Assembly: GCF_019249795.2 (NCBI RefSeq)
Contig: NZ_CP156891.1
Span: forward strand, 2,206,501-2,270,500
DNA length: 64,000 nt
Source: Segatella copri
Lineage (GTDB): Bacteria; Bacteroidota; Bacteroidia; Bacteroidales; Bacteroidaceae
Direction of reading: 5' to 3'
Position 1 is the stretch's first letter; each line of letters starts with the position of its first letter. Made by a program: the position numbers and the translations under genes. The notes beneath the pieces were generated by a model that was given only the letters and a program-made list of their open reading frames with translations, had not been told where the DNA came from and ran no database searches. Shown piece by piece: positions 7,710-16,082 of the stretch.

Positions 7710-7783
7710 CACCGCTTTTCAGAATGGAAGGCGGCAGGTTTCTGCAAAGAGCCTGTCTTTTACAACTAAAAAAATATAGATTT

Positions 7784-10324
7784 ATGACACAAAAATCATT
7801 AACCTTTGATGAATGCAAGCAGCTCAGCAGCCGCATCATCGCAATGAACCCTAACCGCAGAGCGAACATGGGACAGATTTCATCCCATCTCCTCGATTAC
7901 TACACCGAACTCACCAAGCAGCCTTGGCTCGCACAGCTTGTTGGTCAGATCCGTGACCTCACCGCCCAGCAGAACCAGATGATGCAGGAGGAGATGAAGG
8001 CGGGAGAGACTTACCAGCAGCTCGACCGCAAGATTACTGACCTCAAGAAGCAGCTGCCTTTCCGCTCACCTCACTACTTCCACTTCCTCGAAGACCATCG
8101 CGCCCAGAAGTTCATCGACCCAGAGGCTTTCACCTTCCAGACAACCGTAGACATTGATAATCCTGAGGAGGTTGAGCCAGCGGTGAAGAATGCCCTTCTG
8201 CTGAACGGAATTTTTGATGAGCCTACAGAGAAGCTCTTCAGAGAGAAAATCTTCTCAGCCGAAGACATTGAACTCTGGAAGGGAAAGGTGCTCCACATCG
8301 AGCGCTCAGCCCGCAACAAGGCCCACATCGACATCCGCATCCCGGTAGGAATGACCATCGCTGAGGCTCAGAGCGCCTTCTGCAAACTCATCCACGCCAC
8401 CGAAGACCCTAGCTGCGTAACCCCGGAGCGCATCATCTTCATCACCGATGCGGCAAGTCAGATCTATACTGCCGACGACTGGTACAAGCGCCTGGATAAG
8501 GAAGCTGTGGCTGAATATCGTGAGGCTTACCGCAAGAGAGGACTGGATATTGACGGCCGTCCGCTGGATGTAGATTCAGCCCGTTCAGGAGCCTCTCAGA
8601 GCCAGGCATTTCAGAATGCATCTTCTGCTCCAACCGTAGATTTCGAACCCATCGAGAGCGAGGAGGAGAAGGCGAGACGGGCTGCCAATGCCGTGCAGTA
8701 TGAGCAGACTTACGACGGCGTTCCTTACGGGGAGATTGTGAAGGCGCTGGTAGAGCTGATGGGCGGCGCTCCTGTCCACGGCAACCGCAACAACTTCATC
8801 TATCGTGAAGCCTGCCTGCTGAGATACATCTGTAATAGTGAGGCGGCTTGGATCAAGCAGGTAATAGAAACCTTTGGCGAAGACGAGGCGAAGGCGTTCG
8901 CCACCGTAGAGAATGCCTGCAAGGTGGCGCAATCTACCGCGATTCCAGATTTGGTAAAGCAGGCTGTAGAGACTGCTCGCAAGAATCATCTTGCCAAGCA
9001 GGCCACCGAGAAGGCGGGAATCTATGCCGATGTTCCTCCTCAGTTGCCAGCCAAGCTGCCTAAGCTCATCAAGCTGCTCACCAGCAAGGTGCCTGCCGAT
9101 TTCAAGGCGGCTGTGGCAATGGCGGTCTTCCCTGCGCTTGCCGCTCATCTTAAGGGCGTAACCTTCCGCTACACGGATAATCAGGTGCACGAGGCGGCGA
9201 TGATGAATCTGCTCATTGCAGCCATGTCGTCAGGCAAATCGCTCGTCAACGGACCCATCGACTGCATCATCGAAGACCTGGTTCAGATGGATAAGGTGAA
9301 CCGCCAGAAGGAGCAGGACTGGAAGGACGAGGTGAACACCATGGGCGACAACAAGAAGAAGCCTGTGCGCCCGGAAGACATCTGCATCCGCATCGTTTCG
9401 CCCGACCTTACCCGCGCTGCCTACATCCAGCGTCTCGACGATGTGCAGAAGGCTGGCGATGCTTATCTCTACTGCAAGATGGACGAGGTAGACATGCTCA
9501 GGAAGTTTAACGACCCTAGCCAGCTGATTCGCCTCTGCTGGGACAATTCAGAGGACGGCCAGGAGCGAGTAGGAACCAAGAGCGTTACAGCCCGCGTAAA
9601 GACCCGTTTCAACTGGAATGCTTCGAGCACCATTGCCGTTACGCAGAAGTTCTTCTCGGTTCGTGAGGTGGCTGATGGAGCCGTGAGCCGCCTGACGCTC
9701 GCCACCATCATCCGTCCCGATTTCGCTCCGCGTCCGGAGGTGGGCAGTTATGATGCGCAGTTCAAGTCGCAGCTTTCTCCTTACATCCAGCAGCTGAACG
9801 CAGCCAGCGGTTTCAAGGAGTGCCGTAAGGCTCGCCAGCTTATCGAGCGCCTGGAGAATGAGATTATGGAGATGGCTCAGCTGGCTTACAACAAGCCTTA
9901 CGCCGAGTTTGCCAAGCGTGGTCTGGCGAATGGTTTCCGCCGCGCGATGGTGCTTTATCTGGCGAATGGCGAGAAGTGGGAGAAGGCGATAGAGGATTTC
10001 ATCGTATGGAGCGTGAAGTATGATCTGTGGTGCAAGATGCGTTTCTTCGGCAATCAGATGCAGGAGGCGATAGATGCAGACAGCCGCTCTGTGTGTCATA
10101 CTCCCGGTGTGAGCAATCTTCTTCTCTACGTTCATGACACCTTTGACAAGACTGAGATTCAGAACATCTGTCAGGTTCATGGCACCAAGACGAAGCTTGC
10201 CATCCTGCTGTGCAACTGGAAGAAGCGTGGCTTCATCATGAAGAACGAGGACGGCACCTTCACCAAGACCGCCCGTTTCATAGCCAAGTACGGGCACTAC
10301 GGAACGCCAGGAGTGGCTGCGTAG
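7784..10324 (+). CDS. large P-loop protein, DUF3987/BT4734-like
   Basis: This 846-residue protein (start MTQKSLTFDECKQ) has a helical N-terminus with coiled-coil character (residues about 35-95). A middle part has a HIDIRIPVGMTIAEAQ segment that may be primase- or VirE-like. The C-terminal half carries a Walker A-like NLLIAAMSSGKSLV (near residue 484) and a Walker B-like YLYCKMDEVDML (near 565). The layout recalls the BT4734/DUF3987 proteins of Bacteroidota, which are thought to be helicase- or primase-related and are often tied to mobile DNA; I am not certain of that link. The Walker A starts with Ala where Gly is usual. It has its own promoter, and a long inverted repeat follows the stop. 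Confidence 0.65.
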   Translation: MTQKSLTFDECKQLSSRIIAMNPNRRANMGQISSHLLDYYTELTKQPWLAQLVGQIRDLTAQQNQMMQEEMKAGETYQQLDRKITDLKKQLPFRSPHYFHFLEDHRAQKFIDPEAFTFQTTVDIDNPEEVEPAVKNALLLNGIFDEPTEKLFREKIFSAEDIELWKGKVLHIERSARNKAHIDIRIPVGMTIAEAQSAFCKLIHATEDPSCVTPERIIFITDAASQIYTADDWYKRLDKEAVAEYREAYRKRGLDIDGRPLDVDSARSGASQSQAFQNASSAPTVDFEPIESEEEKARRAANAVQYEQTYDGVPYGEIVKALVELMGGAPVHGNRNNFIYREACLLRYICNSEAAWIKQVIETFGEDEAKAFATVENACKVAQSTAIPDLVKQAVETARKNHLAKQATEKAGIYADVPPQLPAKLPKLIKLLTSKVPADFKAAVAMAVFPALAAHLKGVTFRYTDNQVHEAAMMNLLIAAMSSGKSLVNGPIDCIIEDLVQMDKVNRQKEQDWKDEVNTMGDNKKKPVRPEDICIRIVSPDLTRAAYIQRLDDVQKAGDAYLYCKMDEVDMLRKFNDPSQLIRLCWDNSEDGQERVGTKSVTARVKTRFNWNASSTIAVTQKFFSVREVADGAVSRLTLATIIRPDFAPRPEVGSYDAQFKSQLSPYIQQLNAASGFKECRKARQLIERLENEIMEMAQLAYNKPYAEFAKRGLANGFRRAMVLYLANGEKWEKAIEDFIVWSVKYDLWCKMRFFGNQMQEAIDADSRSVCHTPGVSNLLLYVHDTFDKTEIQNICQVHGTKTKLAILLCNWKKRGFIMKNEDGTFTKTARFIAKYGHYGTPGVAA

Positions 10325-10332
10325 AATAGATT

Positions 10333-10434
10333 AGGCACGGATTATGCGGATTACACGGATGTTCTATGAGATTATGAATGTGTTTTAATTGATGTGAGAG
10401 ACTTAAATCCGTGTAATCCGAGTAATCCGTGCCT
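10333..10434. repeat. long inverted repeat, CACGGAT type
   Basis: Arms of 28 bases (10333-10360 and 10407-10434) match at 26 positions around a 46-base loop. Each arm is built of GGATTACACGGAT-like units. The repeat begins 8 bases after the stop of the P-loop gene and could end its transcript. The unit is related to the CACAGAT-type palindrome at 16711-16799. Confidence 0.85.
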
Positions 10435-10510
10435 GATTTGTAATGAGAATGTAAATGTTCTTGACCTTAATCAAGAAAAAAGGGCTTTTTGAAACTTTTC
10501 TCCTAAAATG

Positions 10511-10542
10511 TTTGTGTGCGCACACAAAAAGTTGTACCTTTG
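10511..10542 (+). promoter_or_regulatory. promoter of the tiny-peptide unit, with palindromic operator
   Basis: The -33 TTTG (10511-10514) and the -7 TACCTTTG (10535-10542) are 20 bases apart, a good Bacteroidota promoter. A perfect 18-base palindrome, TTTGTGTGCGCACACAAA (10511-10528), begins exactly at the -33 box and fills half of the spacer. A dimeric repressor bound there would block the promoter; this is inference. Confidence 0.8.
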
Positions 10543-10710
10543 CACCAGAAAAAGAAAAAAGGATAAAAGATTGATTCAGTAAGGATAACTTACGAAATCG
10601 ATTCGAGACAAGTTTGAGACCGGTTCGGAACCTGGTTCTGAGATTCGGTTGAAGACTTCTGGAAAATCTCGAAGAGATTGATTAAGAGGTTAAAAGAAAG
10701 GAAAAAGATT
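10543..10710 (+). other. long leader of the tiny-peptide transcript
   Basis: About 160 bases separate the predicted start of transcription from the first tiny gene. The leader has several short self-complementary runs around GACCGGTTCGGAACC (10619-10633) and ends in the purine-rich GAAAGGAAAAAGATT before the ATG. A structured leader is possible but not shown. Confidence 0.4.
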
Positions 10711-10803
10711 ATGGTAATGTTCGGGATAATGACAGTAGCAGTAGTAGCATTCGCAGTAGTTGCTTGCGCAGGTATGAACCTCGGAATGAACTGCGGTAAA
10801 TAA
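10711..10803 (+). CDS. tiny membrane peptide 1 (30 residues)
   Basis: The frame encodes a 30-residue peptide. MVMFGIMTVAVVAFAVVACA is a single hydrophobic helix and is followed by GMNLGMNCGK. An AAAGGAAAAAGATT purine-rich stretch lies directly before the ATG and is repeated almost exactly before the second tiny gene. I do not recognise the peptide. Its size and single helix resemble type I toxins or small membrane regulators. Reality is supported by the strong promoter upstream, the shared leader motif and the similarity between the two peptides (FGIM/LGMIF then AVV and AC). Confidence 0.6.
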   Translation: MVMFGIMTVAVVAFAVVACAGMNLGMNCGK

Positions 10804-10929
10804 GCTACGAAGCTAAGAGAGCATAGAAATCCTCCTCCGGGAGGTAAGAAATAAAGAGAGTTAAGATTTTGTTAGGTAAAACTACAAGATTGTATATTTA
10901 AGATAACAAATTTAAGAAAGGAAAAGATT

Positions 10930-11010
10930 ATGTTAGTATTAGGAATGATTTTCGCAGTAGTTGTTGCATGTGTAGCTGAAGTTGGTGCTATTAGCAACAA
11001 GTTGGCTTAA
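10930..11010 (+). CDS. tiny membrane peptide 2 (26 residues)
   Basis: The second peptide begins MLVLGMIFAVVVACVAEVGA and ends ISNKLA. It shares the order of hydrophobic block, AVVVAC and short polar tail with peptide 1, and AAGGAAAAGATT precedes its ATG as in peptide 1. A duplication of one small gene is the simplest reading. It lies 126 bases downstream, in what looks like the same transcript, which may end at the small hairpin at 11124-11146. Function is unknown. Confidence 0.55.
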   Translation: MLVLGMIFAVVVACVAEVGAISNKLA

Positions 11011-11123
11011 TCGGAGATTAGCCATGCGAAGGGCTCCAAAAGAGCCGAGATTAAAAATGGCTGGCAGCAATGCACAGCTGAGTAAAAAACAGTAGGGAGC
11101 CAAAAGGGCTTCCGAAATCAGAG

Positions 11124-11146
11124 AGGAGAGTAAAAACTCCTTTTCA
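11124..11146 (+). terminator. weak terminator of the tiny-peptide unit
   Basis: AGGAG (11124-11128) and CTCCT (11137-11141) pair around a short A-rich loop and TTTT follows. The stem is short, so this is tentative. Two similar GGCTC/GAGCC-type hairpins lie just upstream. Confidence 0.4.
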
Positions 11147-11576
11147 TTTGAAATTCATACTGTCCCCTGAGAGTTTTCGTGATAAATTCTGATTGGGGAT
11201 TTCATATATAGATTGTTAAGAATTCGTTTTAGGTTTTATAGATTTTCATTTTAGGTTTTTAGGTTTAAGTTTTTAGGTTAATTGTTAGTTGTTTTTAAGA
11301 AAAAAGAATGACTAAAAAAGCAAAAAATAGCAGATTTGAGCTTTTGTTTTGAGTTTCAAGTGGTTGTGGCAGTCGTTGGCTTTTTGTGGCATTCGTGAGG
11401 AAATGCGAAAATGGCGGATTTGAGAAGTAGAAACGCTTTCAAGTCATTACCTCAAAGAAACGCTCTAATAAGCATTTTTAACGGCTTCGGTTTTTACTTC
11501 TCAATTCTGCACAGGTTGTGAATTTGCCATGCAACTCTCATGATTTAATTTTGCACAGAACAAAAAGCAAGGAATT
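11147..11576 (+). other. region upstream of integrase with paired repeats
   Basis: No gene is seen. TTGAGAAGTA (11420-11429) and TACTTCTCAA (11495-11504) form perfect 10-base inverted repeats, and GAAACGCT occurs twice between them. This layout just before a tyrosine recombinase gene suggests integrase arm-binding sites or an element end. A run of TTTTAGGTTT repeats lies at 11228-11281. Confidence 0.5.
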
Positions 11577-12800
11577 ATGAGAAGTACATTCAAGACAGTC
11601 TTCTATGTAAACGGAAGCAAGGAGAGAAACGGAATTGTCCCTATCATGGGACGTGTGACAATCAACGGAACTATCGCACAGTTCAGTTGCAAGCTGAGCG
11701 TGACCAAGGCGATATGGGATGCCAAGGGCAACAGAGCCAAAGGCAGAAGCAAGGAAGCCAATGAGGTGAACTTTGCGCTTGATAACATCAAGGCTCAAAT
11801 CGCTAAGCATTACCAACGGCTTTCCGACCGTGAGGCGTTCGTTACCGCTGAAATGGTGAGAAACGCATATCAAGGCATAGGTACGGAGTATGAGACATTA
11901 CTCAGAGCTTTTGACAAGGAGAACGCAGCCTTTGCCCAACGCGTGGGAAAAGACCGAGCTGTCCGAACCTACCGCAAGTATCTGACGGTAAGAAAGTACG
12001 TTGCCGAGTTCATCAAATTTCAGTACAAGCGCAGCGATATGTCCATGAATGAGCTTACCGAGGAGTTCATCCGTGATTTTTGTCTGTATTTGAAGAATGT
12101 CATTGGACTCACGCAATCTACCATTTGGATATACTCCATACCATTGAAGCATATCGTCACGGCAGCACACTACAACGGCAAGATACAGAGAAATCCGTTT
12201 GCCATGTACCACGTTGACCCAGACCACAAGGAGCGTGAGTTCTTGACAGAGGAAGAATTGGACATATTTGCAGGAATAGAGTTGGAAAATCCCAACTTTG
12301 CTTTTGCGAGAGACTTGTTTATGTTTGGTTGTTGGACAGGTATCTCTTTCGTTGACATCAAGAATCTTACAGAGGACAATGTTGCCATTATAAGTGGGTC
12401 TCCATGGATAGTTTCTCAGCGTCAAAAGACAGGCGTACCATTCAAAATTAAACTGATAGATGCAGCCATACAGATAATTGAACGTTACAAGCCATTGAGA
12501 AAAGATATGCACTTGTTTAATATTGGCTCACTTGACATGGTAAACAAGCGTATAAAGAAAGTGGCAAAAATGTGTGGCATCAAGAAGCGAATTTCATTTC
12601 ATGTCTCCCGGCATTCGTTCGCAGTTTTGGCTTTAAACTACGGTATGCCGATAGAGAGTGTAAGCAAGATACTGGGACATACGGACATCGCCACAACACA
12701 AATTTACGCAAAGGTGACAAGTACTAAATTGGAGCATGACATATCAGCTTTTGAAAGTCGAATCAAGGGGCATATGCCGACAATGGGGGGAATGGCATGA
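11577..12800 (+). CDS. tyrosine recombinase, IntDOT-like
   Basis: This 407-residue integrase has an N-terminal arm-binding region, a core-binding SAM-like domain (about 105-205) and a C-terminal catalytic domain. I see the HVSRHSFAVLALNYG box (His and Arg), the ILGHTDIATTQIYAKV box (Gly-His and the nucleophile Tyr near residue 378) and a TGISFVDIKNL box. In most tyrosine recombinases the last box is TGLRxxD; here Ser replaces the first catalytic Arg. IntDOT of the Bacteroides element CTnDOT is known to lack that Arg too. The protein therefore probably integrates a conjugative or mobilisable element. Its stop overlaps the next start (ATGA). Confidence 0.92.
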   Translation: MRSTFKTVFYVNGSKERNGIVPIMGRVTINGTIAQFSCKLSVTKAIWDAKGNRAKGRSKEANEVNFALDNIKAQIAKHYQRLSDREAFVTAEMVRNAYQGIGTEYETLLRAFDKENAAFAQRVGKDRAVRTYRKYLTVRKYVAEFIKFQYKRSDMSMNELTEEFIRDFCLYLKNVIGLTQSTIWIYSIPLKHIVTAAHYNGKIQRNPFAMYHVDPDHKEREFLTEEELDIFAGIELENPNFAFARDLFMFGCWTGISFVDIKNLTEDNVAIISGSPWIVSQRQKTGVPFKIKLIDAAIQIIERYKPLRKDMHLFNIGSLDMVNKRIKKVAKMCGIKKRISFHVSRHSFAVLALNYGMPIESVSKILGHTDIATTQIYAKVTSTKLEHDISAFESRIKGHMPTMGGMA

Positions 12801-13171
12801 AAAGGACTGTAATCACCGTGGACGGAAATGGAATGTTATCCATTCCGTCCAACTTGCAAGACTTGTGGATGAGTGAGGGTGAATTGGTTGATATGCTTCA
12901 TGTCACCGCCATGAAACTCCATGCTGTGATAAGGTCAATATACAAGGATGGTTTATTGACGGTGTCGGAAGTCCAACAGAAACAGGAAACTTCCAATGGC
13001 ATTTGGCAAACGTTGTATGGCTTTCCGATGATTGTTGCCCTTTGCTTCCGTATAAACTCATACGGGGCAGCTCGGTTTCGTGCCACCATCTTCAAGAGAT
13101 TGTATGGGGCAAAAGAGAAAAGTAGTGTCATCATCCTACAACTCAATAGAAGAACAACCGCCTTTAGTTGA
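12797..13171 (+). CDS. RhuM-like protein
   Basis: The 124-residue product overlaps the integrase stop by 4 bases, so the two are translationally coupled. The segment LYGFPMIVALCFRINSYGAARFRATIFKRL strongly recalls the core of RhuM-family proteins (YNLDMIxxxGYRVNSxxGTQFRxWATxxL), which are common on Bacteroidota mobile elements and have no agreed function. This copy is short and covers only the N-terminal RhuM half. No catalytic residues are visible. Confidence 0.65.
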   Translation: MKRTVITVDGNGMLSIPSNLQDLWMSEGELVDMLHVTAMKLHAVIRSIYKDGLLTVSEVQQKQETSNGIWQTLYGFPMIVALCFRINSYGAARFRATIFKRLYGAKEKSSVIILQLNRRTTAFS

Positions 13172-14294
13172 ATGTCCTCTTGCTTGTTTGTTGGCTTGGC
13201 GCTGTCGTACTGTCGTGAATAAGTACTGAAGCATAAGCATGACATTCTTACTTGTAGGGGGATGAGTTCTGTTCATAAAAATGACGGACAAAACACCCCT
13301 TATTTTTGTTGAATTGTTGAATATGATGAAAGAAGTATTGAACATCAGGTATTTACGGCTCAACATATTCTCAACAAATCTCTCAACAAAAGAAAGATAA
13401 TGTTGAAAAGAGAAAACCATGAACACCATTCCTTTCTTTCTTTTTTGCCCAGTAATTTGTTGTGTAGAGCTATTTGTTGAGAGTTTGTTGAGGGTATAAG
13501 TGGTTGGTTCTCATAAAGATAACACCTATCTTCAACAATTCAACGTTTTACATGCCCTCACTTGGTACGCTGTAAAATGTGCTTGTGGATTAATTGGCAA
13601 CCGCTCTATTCTCCGAAATGGTTGCAGCAACGTTCCTTGGAGGCTTTGCGCCTCCAGCCACTTGGGCGAACCTCCGCAGTGTTTTAGCATGGCATTAGAT
13701 TTATGCAGACTATACCGAGGACCCACAGCACACATAACACACTCGGCATAGTTCACAAAGGAAATCAACAACACACAACTGAAACACTTGGCAAGTTTCA
13801 CACTGAAAATATCACCTGTTCCTTTGCAAACTCCATGTACAAAGTAGCTTGTGTCTGTGACCTTGTTCTTTCAATGTGGCAGCTTTGATGTTTGGCGCAA
13901 ATTGAGAGAATTAAGGTCTGCAACCTTGGGCATGGAAAGCCGAAAGGCAAATATCTCGTCTTTTGTTCTTAGAGGAGGGAGCGAGGTTATGTTTTGGGAA
14001 CCCCAAAACGCCTCGCTCCACCATGAGGGCGAAGAAATTTTGCTCCCAACGGTTGCAGAAAGTGAGTGTACCAACTGTAGGCAGTGCATAGAAATATGTA
14101 AATAGATTTGTCAGGTGTAGTTTATTCTTCCTTTATTTGCACAAAAGTATGTTTTGAGTGTTATAAAAAATAAAAAAATGCACTATTACGTTGATACTTT
14201 TGTATTTTTGCACTCAGTTATCTTGGACAGCAGAATTTGAAACACTGAAAATCCGTAATCTGTCTATATGTAAAATCTTTAAATTTGGATTATT
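13172..14294. other. 1.1 kb noncoding stretch of the integrated element
   Basis: Open frames here are short and have no recognisable domains. The region holds paired CTCAACAAA repeats (13370-13390) facing TTTGTTGAG repeats (13473-13494), a GGAGGC/GCCTCC hairpin near 13639-13656, and a long hairpin at 13978-14019. A -7 element (TATTTTTG, 14203-14210) at the right end fits the lipoprotein gene. It may be an attachment or replication region; that is inference. Confidence 0.55.
13978..14019. repeat. long two-part hairpin
   Basis: GGAGCGAGG (13978-13986) pairs with CCTCGCTCC (14011-14019), and inside them GTTTTGGG pairs with CCCAAAAC around AAC. No T-run follows. Confidence 0.75.
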
Positions 14295-15749
14295 ATGACT
14301 AAGAAGTTTTGGTTAATAGCACTCATCGTAGCTTGCACTGTTGTATTTGGCAGTTGCGATAAGTCTGAGGAATTGAGTGTTGAGCAATGTAAGTTGGATA
14401 TGAATCTATTCAACCAAACCTATACTGTTAATGATGAGGGGTGCTGTGTGCTAAAAGGGAGAAAGCCAATAGCAGCAGAAGAAATACAGAGTAAGGTCAA
14501 GGGCTATGGTTGGGAGAGTATTGCCACTTATGAGGTACAGGAAAACGGAAAGTTGAGCAAGGAGGAATTTTGGAAAGACAGATTTGGTGGCAGCCCTACA
14601 CACTTTTGGTTTGAGACATCACAGCAAGCTTTTAGTTATTTTTATAGTGATGCCTTGCCAGCCTTTTGTTTCAGTCGTGTATCATGGACTTATGACATGG
14701 ACAAAGGCTTCATACTGTTTGGCAGCAACAAGCAGACAACAGACAGCAGATACATGCAGATTCTTAAGCTTGACGAGTCGAATGGCAAGACCTTAATGTA
14801 CACCATACAAAAATTGGGAGCGACGAGTGATGGCAGCAATGGTTACAAGTCTATATATGGCATGATTGTATATAAACGCATGACCGAAACCGATTTGGAA
14901 ATGATGAAGAAAAGTTACACGTATGATACGGATATTGACCGTTCTGTTCCCGACAACTGCAAGTTTAAGATTAAGGCATACTATGCAGAAGACGACAAAG
15001 ACAACACAGACCCTGTGTTTCAGACCTTCTGCCTTGTAACATTTGAGCTTACCGATGAATATGGTTTCAACTCTTCAGATAATGCCTATTACAACTACTA
15101 CGATTCAATTACTTGGACGAGTGATTGTCGTGATATGCCAGATAGCTTTGGAATCATGGAACGTAAGACAAACTGTTTGAATACTTCCTATTGGTGGAGC
15201 ACATACTTCTTCACGCCTCATGACAATACTATTGTCTATGCCAATGGCTATAAAGATGGCCGTATTGTCTATCAAGCCCGAAAGAGGCTCTATTTGGTGA
15301 ATGATGGATTCTTTGGTTACGATTGGGATAACGTAAGGTATAATTCCAAGAACCCCGAACTAACAGAATATTGCTTGCTGGACAAGAGCCGTGAGTTTAT
15401 CCTAACTCCACCTACTGCCTACAAAGAAGACATTACAAAACCGTATGCAGAGTTACGTATTGTACTGAAAGGAGCAAAAGACAAAAACGACAAGGAATAT
15501 ATGTTAGGCGTGCTTGAACGTGAAAGAGAAGGTCTGTTGAAGATTATGGACCAGTACTATGAAGCACATAGTACTATAAAAGAAACAGAAAAGGCTTCGC
15601 TGTGTAAAACGTTTAAGGCACTACCCGAAGATGCTGATATTAAAGCATATTGGCGTACAAAACATTCTCGCATGGTACTGATACTTAAAACTGACGGGGA
15701 AGACCCTATAAACAGTGAATACTATGTGCATGCGGAACCAATTAAATGA
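14295..15749 (+). CDS. predicted lipoprotein, unknown function
   Basis: The 484-residue protein has a lipoprotein signal: a hydrophobic helix, then VVFGSC with the lipidated Cys21, followed by DKSEE. An acidic patch right after the cysteine is the known surface-export signal of Bacteroidota lipoproteins, so it may sit on the cell surface. The mature part is rich in Tyr, Trp and charged residues and has no domain I recognise. A -7 element (14203-14210) stands about 85 bases upstream. Composition is more AT-rich than the core genes to either side, which suggests it belongs to the integrated element. Confidence 0.65.
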   Translation: MTKKFWLIALIVACTVVFGSCDKSEELSVEQCKLDMNLFNQTYTVNDEGCCVLKGRKPIAAEEIQSKVKGYGWESIATYEVQENGKLSKEEFWKDRFGGSPTHFWFETSQQAFSYFYSDALPAFCFSRVSWTYDMDKGFILFGSNKQTTDSRYMQILKLDESNGKTLMYTIQKLGATSDGSNGYKSIYGMIVYKRMTETDLEMMKKSYTYDTDIDRSVPDNCKFKIKAYYAEDDKDNTDPVFQTFCLVTFELTDEYGFNSSDNAYYNYYDSITWTSDCRDMPDSFGIMERKTNCLNTSYWWSTYFFTPHDNTIVYANGYKDGRIVYQARKRLYLVNDGFFGYDWDNVRYNSKNPELTEYCLLDKSREFILTPPTAYKEDITKPYAELRIVLKGAKDKNDKEYMLGVLEREREGLLKIMDQYYEAHSTIKETEKASLCKTFKALPEDADIKAYWRTKHSRMVLILKTDGEDPINSEYYVHAEPIK

Positions 15750-15854
15750 TAAATAAGTTTAATGTGGACAACAATAGTCATAAGGCGAAGTTAATCTTTG
15801 TTTTATGACTATTGTTTTTTTGCACCAACATAGTGTGGTTTCATTTTTATTTTG

Positions 15855-16082
15855 TATTTTTGCAACTGTAAAGAGTTGTTAGGCAAAGCAAACATATGCA
15901 TATTGCAGAAGTTGTGACTATTGCCAAATCATTACCTCTATTGAGGTTGAACACTTATAAATCGCTCATTTTAAGCTATTCAGCAGATTATAAAGAATTT
16001 TTTGGAAAAAAGCAGTTTTTAATTCATTAAATTACGAAGGCAACAACGAGGGAAGTCGCATGACGCCCCAAGTTGTTGCCTT
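15855..16082 (+). other. short promoter-to-terminator unit
   Basis: A -7 element TATTTTTG (15855-15862) is followed after about 175 bases by a terminator-like hairpin with 11-base arms, AAGGCAACAAC (16037-16047) and GTTGTTGCCTT (16072-16082), then a T-rich run. The transcript would be about 210 bases. It could be a small RNA or carry the 44-codon frame listed separately. Confidence 0.45.
15896..16030 (+). CDS. possible 44-residue protein
   Basis: ATG at 15896 opens MHIAEVVTIAKSLPLLRLNT, ending KKQFLIH at a TAA. It lies wholly inside the short unit bounded by the -7 element and the hairpin. There is no clear ribosome site and no recognised family, so it may be chance. Confidence 0.3.
   Translation: MHIAEVVTIAKSLPLLRLNTYKSLILSYSADYKEFFGKKQFLIH

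Follow-up and report, generated by a model that had tools for sequence, protein, structure and literature searches.

Introduction

Small single-pass membrane proteins have been recognized in other bacteria, AcrZ, KdpF, CydX, MgtS and YnhF among them. These proteins have about 25-50 residues, one hydrophobic helix and either a promoter of their own or no large partner gene adjoining, and in this they resemble two peptides encoded side by side in the 64-kb stretch of Segatella copri DNA analysed here (the window). The window peptides differ from them in that neither has a Pfam, NCBIfam or PHROGs match and in that they are tied to a promoter class of the Bacteroidaceae. Also comparable are the transmembrane small-protein families 333520 and 357465 found by MetaRibo-Seq, which are reported to be Prevotella-exclusive and translated in vivo (PMC7324362); to judge by that description only, the likeness is that of tiny, predicted transmembrane, Prevotella-exclusive products.

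On the side of regulation, the nearest described system is the Cur (BT4338) regulon of Bacteroides, with the motif wwwTATGTTnTAnAACATAwww (PMC6989115, PMC3878776). The box upstream of the window promoter is, like this motif, a CRP-family palindrome of equal geometry with an nTAn core, and Cur-like sites lie in box promoters of other genera; the half-site, however, is TTGAY in the window box and ATGTT in Cur, and reading the window promoter for the Cur motif did not reveal one. The FopS sRNAs (RF04319; PMC11697453) are alike in that some fopS genes of the genus use the same box promoter, and unlike in that they are noncoding and that 26 of the 30 fopS loci examined are without the box. No description of either the promoter class or the peptide family was found in the open-licence PMC literature.

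In human gut and mouth communities Prevotella and its relatives rank among the major members, yet the map of their regulators is poor. A promoter signature this strict, accompanying membrane peptides of 25-31 residues, gives access to genes passed over in annotation; it makes regulators findable from one known DNA and predicts which genes respond together. The reading preferred here, with a probability of roughly 0.6, is that the locus is a dedicated transcription unit for two single-pass inner-membrane peptides, activated through the box and modulated through a second palindrome.

Results and discussion

The promoter carries two palindromes

The features of the locus are collected in Table 1. 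The initial annotation described a consensus promoter with a perfect 18-base palindrome starting at its -33 box, and both are there to be read in the sequence: TTTG, a 20-base spacer and TACCTTTG, the -33 and -7 elements of the Bacteroides primary sigma factor consensus. That consensus (PMC7366714) is the basis of the core-promoter call. The centre of the palindrome lies 15 bases from the -7 box, over the -33 region, which is a repressor-like place. The window has a single copy of its 14-base core, against 0.12 occurrences expected when up to two mismatches are allowed, and what takes the palindrome beyond chance is its link to one promoter class.

Table 1. Positions of the features of the peptide locus within the window
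Feature	Position	Strand	Remarks
CRP/FNR-type palindromic box TTGACCTTAATCAA	10461..10474	+	centre about -82 from the inferred start
18-base palindrome TTTGTGTGCGCACACAAA	10511..10528	.	second operator-like site, overlaps the -33 box
Core promoter: TTTG (-33) 10511-10514, spacer 20, TACCTTTG (-7) 10535-10542	10511..10542	+	
Leader, about 161 bases	10550..10710	+	transcript start inferred from the promoter
Purine-rich stretch AAGAAAGG ahead of peptide 1	10694..10701	+	
Peptide 1, 30 aa, hydrophobic	10711..10803, with stop	+	separate family
Purine-rich stretch AAGAAAGG ahead of peptide 2	10914..10921	+	
Peptide 2, 26 aa, single predicted membrane helix	10930..11010, with stop	+	member of the genus-level tiny-peptide family
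Weak terminator-like hairpin with T run	11120..11145	+	about 130 bases past the stop, -13.5 kcal/mol

The box, overlooked in the initial annotation, lies exactly 60 bases before the -7 box and emerged when homologous loci were compared, in which it stands at an equal distance in otherwise unlike promoters. Given that a box at about -82 has the spacing of a class I activator, the claim that the promoter is probably repressed by a dimer covers at most half of the control, and what stands of it is the recurring operator-like palindrome. Inverted near-repeats (GGCACGGATTATGCGGATTACACGG and its partner) occupy 10335-10436, between the upstream 866-aa gene and the promoter, where the nearest genome compared (G001) has other sequence.

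The box defines a promoter class

The pattern TTGAYNNNNRTCAA, gap, TANNTTTGCA is present in 36 of 36 genus genomes and in two of 24 order-level relatives, with one match in each of the two; a reversed control pattern gave a single match in the same genus and order search. When the gap was narrowed to 58-62, matches were found in 93 of 151 family genomes, belonging to 19 of 30 genera, and the control gave none. Among 38 promoters, which are every listed match in five genomes with gaps of 46-76 allowed, the distance from box to TANNTTTGCA is 60/61 in 34, 70/71 in three and 56 in one, and some members of the peptide family have a box at 79-80, either alone or together with a second box at 60. By this spacing the distances of 60/61, 70/71 and 79/80 are helical steps. 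Class I activators of the CRP/FNR type characteristically have sites that shift by roughly one turn of the helix, and the arrangement found, a palindromic box at a fixed and helically phased distance upstream of the core, has that form. The core of the box is often nTAn in 155 promoters, a histogram biased by the fetching of loci partly with the box pattern itself.

One CRP-type protein accompanies the box, being found in 32 of 36 genus genomes and in all 22 of those that are at least 90% complete (three of the genus copies read with an internal stop or in pieces), whereas the order-level outgroups have weaker matches only, in eight of 24 genomes at E 4e-25 or worse. Among solved structures it is nearest to 1zyb, a regulator of the CRP family. 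The FNR recognition helix E..SR is absent, by eye, from the 14 CRP-type proteins of the genus that could be read, five further genus hits giving no clear reading. This protein is a candidate for the regulator of the box by correlation only.

The second palindrome recurs within the class. TGTKTGCGMAMACA is rare: across nine genus genomes it stands at 20 places, with none in G076. At 19 of the 20 the site is either within a box promoter or some 4-5 bases upstream of its box, the box being mismatched in one case (L159). The sole place away from a box promoter is G001:1624371 (L194), and the three places found in two order-level genomes have no box. This association of 19 in 20 makes TGTKTGCGMAMACA a second site of the box-promoter class, and the palindrome of the window a real, recurring operator-like site. 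The distance from its centre to the -7 box is 9-19, 31, 43-48 or 85-87 bases in box-promoter loci that were partly fetched by the box pattern. In other genera a number of box promoters, such as those of G211, G234 and G253, have instead a Cur-like ATGTTATAAAACAT near the core.

These positions suggest how the promoter may be controlled. A CRP/FNR-family dimer bound at the -82 box would touch RNA polymerase while both sit on one helix face, as in class I activation, and a second dimer at the palindrome, which in the window covers the -33 box, may block or tune the promoter.

The two peptides are not detectably related

Against the family profile peptide 2 scores 41.7 bits, and 23.6 bits when its three nearest relatives are excluded from the model; none of 500 composition-matched shuffles does as well in either case. 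By these scores peptide 2 is a member of a family of 25-31-aa single-helix peptides of the genus. Peptide 1, scored against a profile built without it, gives -5.8 bits, a score equalled or bettered by 421 of 500 composition-matched shuffles. It is conserved, with 46 protein relatives, yet by this measure not detectably related to the family of peptide 2. The initial annotation had called these two related hydrophobic peptides of 30 and 26 residues, of which the sizes and the hydrophobicity hold and the kinship, given the profile scores, is not confirmed. What they have in common is their hydrophobicity and the purine-rich stretch, which is the same before each frame as had been claimed, AAGAAAGGAAAA(A)GATT.

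With a profile from 16 tiny peptides and a limit of E 0.1, at least 31 of the 120 genus genomes gave a match. Once three genomes in which the match is a long protein and one that was left unexamined are taken away, tiny family members are present in at least 27 of the 120, a lower bound that is no measure of absence and does not amount to universality in the genus. Examined here were 37 of the 48 listed places; nine of the other 11 had been seen earlier and two (G017:1654084 and G041:102090) were left out. Three long proteins (L144, L147 and L148), unrelated to the peptide family, were set aside, and the remaining 34 places are frames of 25-31 codons, all with the box, exact in 32 and degenerate in two (L159 and L160), where it sits at exactly 60. 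Nine of these frames carry a peptide used in training, and the other 25 are the fairer test: every one has the box (23 exact, two degenerate), at 24 promoters. In the same loci none of 72 ordinary frames of at least 150 codons has a box within 250 bases.

A search with the start-region pattern found seven loci in named records (Hoylesella buccalis, H. oralis, two of H. timonensis, two of Prevotella and one Prevotellaceae record), all with palindrome and box, one box being mismatched; two of the seven (L379 and L380) are probably from the same genomes as G046 and G030. The gene adjoins ksgA and/or an LPG_synthase_TM gene in 11 of 39 loci, a neighbourhood that looks inherited. Other copies of the family lie elsewhere, including one pair on a Segatella copri plasmid, and tiny-peptide genes may stand in tandem, two in the window, three in L033 and two in L034.

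The frames are under coding constraint. Over 17 pairs of the tiny-peptide family, not all of them independent, the pooled pN/pS is 0.24, which indicates purifying selection on a short frame, as in small single-pass membrane proteins. The initial annotation would have given up its reading had substitutions in relatives broken the frames; they do not, and both peptides are conserved and coding. It might nevertheless be argued that the locus is a noncoding RNA in which the frames arose by chance, given that the leader (z -3.6) and the 3' region (z -4.3) fold better than shuffles. This is hardly credible, for three reasons: first, the pN/pS of 0.24; second, the length variants remain in frame; and third, some members have short, unrelated leaders. 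For peptide 1 these variants are of 29-35 aa with in-frame repeats. Its length varies by whole codons in a V/A repeat (P0031, P0033, P0036, P0038-P0041 and P0045), changes of the kind expected from slippage where the frame is translated.

The highest 17-residue Kyte-Doolittle mean is 1.96-2.88 in 47 of 47 genes, which is that of a membrane-spanning stretch. From this hydropathy the peptides would lie in the inner membrane, with a short polar or basic tail probably inside, and may act on a partner in the membrane and modulate it, in the manner of known small accessory membrane proteins. That they are secreted instead, as signals or antimicrobial peptides, would suit their small size, their fast-changing tails and the lack of an adjoining partner gene. 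Such a role is very improbable, since the hydrophobic stretch is single and uninterrupted in all 47 genes and no exporter or processing gene was seen as a steady neighbour, the recurrent neighbours being ksgA and the LPG_synthase_TM gene named above.

Transcript and surroundings

The leader had been put at about 160 bases, and from the inferred start it measures about 161. Most family members have short leaders, and in some variants the leader is reduced or absent, the promoter region almost directly abutting the peptide in P0018 and P0020. The hairpin at 11120-11145 is the likely end of the transcript, although a plain terminator scan lists that site on the minus strand only. In agreement with the initial annotation, no large gene is seen to use the promoter: the plus strand has no frame of at least 100 codons from 10324 to the integrase at 11577.

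The folded leader, together with the small size, the hydrophobicity and the tandem copies, is also what a type I toxin would present, the hydrophobic peptides damaging the membrane unless silenced by an antisense RNA, and a small-protein toxin was among the functions first proposed. An antisense promoter is found in one of 37 family loci, where 0.9 are expected by shuffling (a search with the known promoter consensus only), -7-like sites alone stand opposite three of 37 loci against 1.2 expected, and a single lone -7-like site lies under the window transcript. Given also that most members have short leaders, and that a product put to use accords better with the strong purifying selection and with a promoter of activator type, the toxin proposal is not upheld and is regarded as improbable. 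The reading of the locus as a transcription unit for two membrane peptides is preferred.

G001 has the peptide pair at the corresponding position, flanked by the 866-aa gene and an M16-type peptidase named by eye; the 866-aa gene of the window (7724-10324) has no Pfam match at E 0.01. A stretch at about 11307-15998 that holds a phage-type integrase has no match in the syntenic stretch of G001. As the pair is shared and this stretch is not, the peptide unit is shared chromosomal DNA and not cargo. The stretch measures about 4.7 kb and has the integrase at 11577-12800 and a lipoprotein-like gene at 14295-15749. Within it, 38 bases (11463-11500) are identical to the end of the phage record MT837469 and are perhaps an attachment site.

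The box promoters drive a wider set of small genes

In the five genomes, the first frame has at most 46 codons after 11 of the 38 box promoters (by reading, nine hydrophobic and two of 39 codons). One of the two 39-codon frames (L106) belongs to a 39-aa YGEAL-type family found in six of 119 genomes, which stands just after a tiny membrane peptide in G001, G025 and G043. Members of that family are basic and end in ..YGEAL..G..Y.CA (L084, L099, L106 and L158). Other targets are a secreted protein of about 120 aa, MATE, M48, LysO, DUF2582, CrcB, a FUR-family protein and outer-membrane barrels; FopS sRNA genes stand behind box promoters in L100, L103, L107, L115 and L222, and, at contig ends, what are probably leaders of rRNA operons have the box at a gap of 70 (L030 and L119, by eye). 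Behind many box promoters stands a conserved, AT-rich leader or RNA (AAAGGTTAATAGATTGTTTAGGTTAGTAGTAATAG...; L087, L090, L098, L104, L105, L112-L114, L116 and L196), and six of these (L090, L098, L104, L113, L116 and L196) have no Rfam match at gathering score.

That many box promoters drive other things counts against the preferred reading. The peptides would be one among the outputs of a broader regulon in which small envelope products abound. In its fullest form this is a tentative proposal, held at somewhat less than even odds: TTGAYNNNNRTCAA at about -82, -92 or -102 would mark a regulon of the family under a CRP/FNR-type activator and, in the genus, a second regulator would read TGTKTGCGMAMACA; the hallmark products would be tiny membrane or amphipathic peptides, small secreted proteins and some FopS sRNAs, together a membrane-homeostasis programme of genes that are mostly too small to annotate.

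The same targets raise the possibility of an envelope- or bile-stress unit, in which the box regulon would be a membrane-damage programme and the peptides would protect the membrane or signal its state. The FopS sRNA genes at the five loci above point that way, as FopS is reported to be bile-induced in B. thetaiotaomicron (PMC11697453), and so do MATE, M48, an outer-membrane barrel and a secreted protein that is weakly LTXXQ/CpxP-like. The bile link through FopS is, however, weak: the box stands at only four of the 30 FopS loci examined (of 40 hits), three of them exact and one mismatched, and at none of nine FopS loci in two genomes of the family genus g62. Furthermore, the LTXXQ and CpxP matches of the secreted target are below cut-off and fold searches gave it no convincing relative, and LysO, CrcB, DUF2582 and the probable rRNA promoters are targets as well. 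A membrane-stress role of the peptides is possible, and the stress unit as a whole is doubtful; a dedicated, box-activated unit for two membrane peptides is the reading retained.

Beyond the genus, in 20 regions of 11 genomes of other family genera, the products behind box promoters are further tiny peptides as well as secreted proteins of small size. The tiny peptides of those genera include a MKKVKSIFKQISKADPMIWGYVMLSENTRTK type (L207, L217-L219 and L221).
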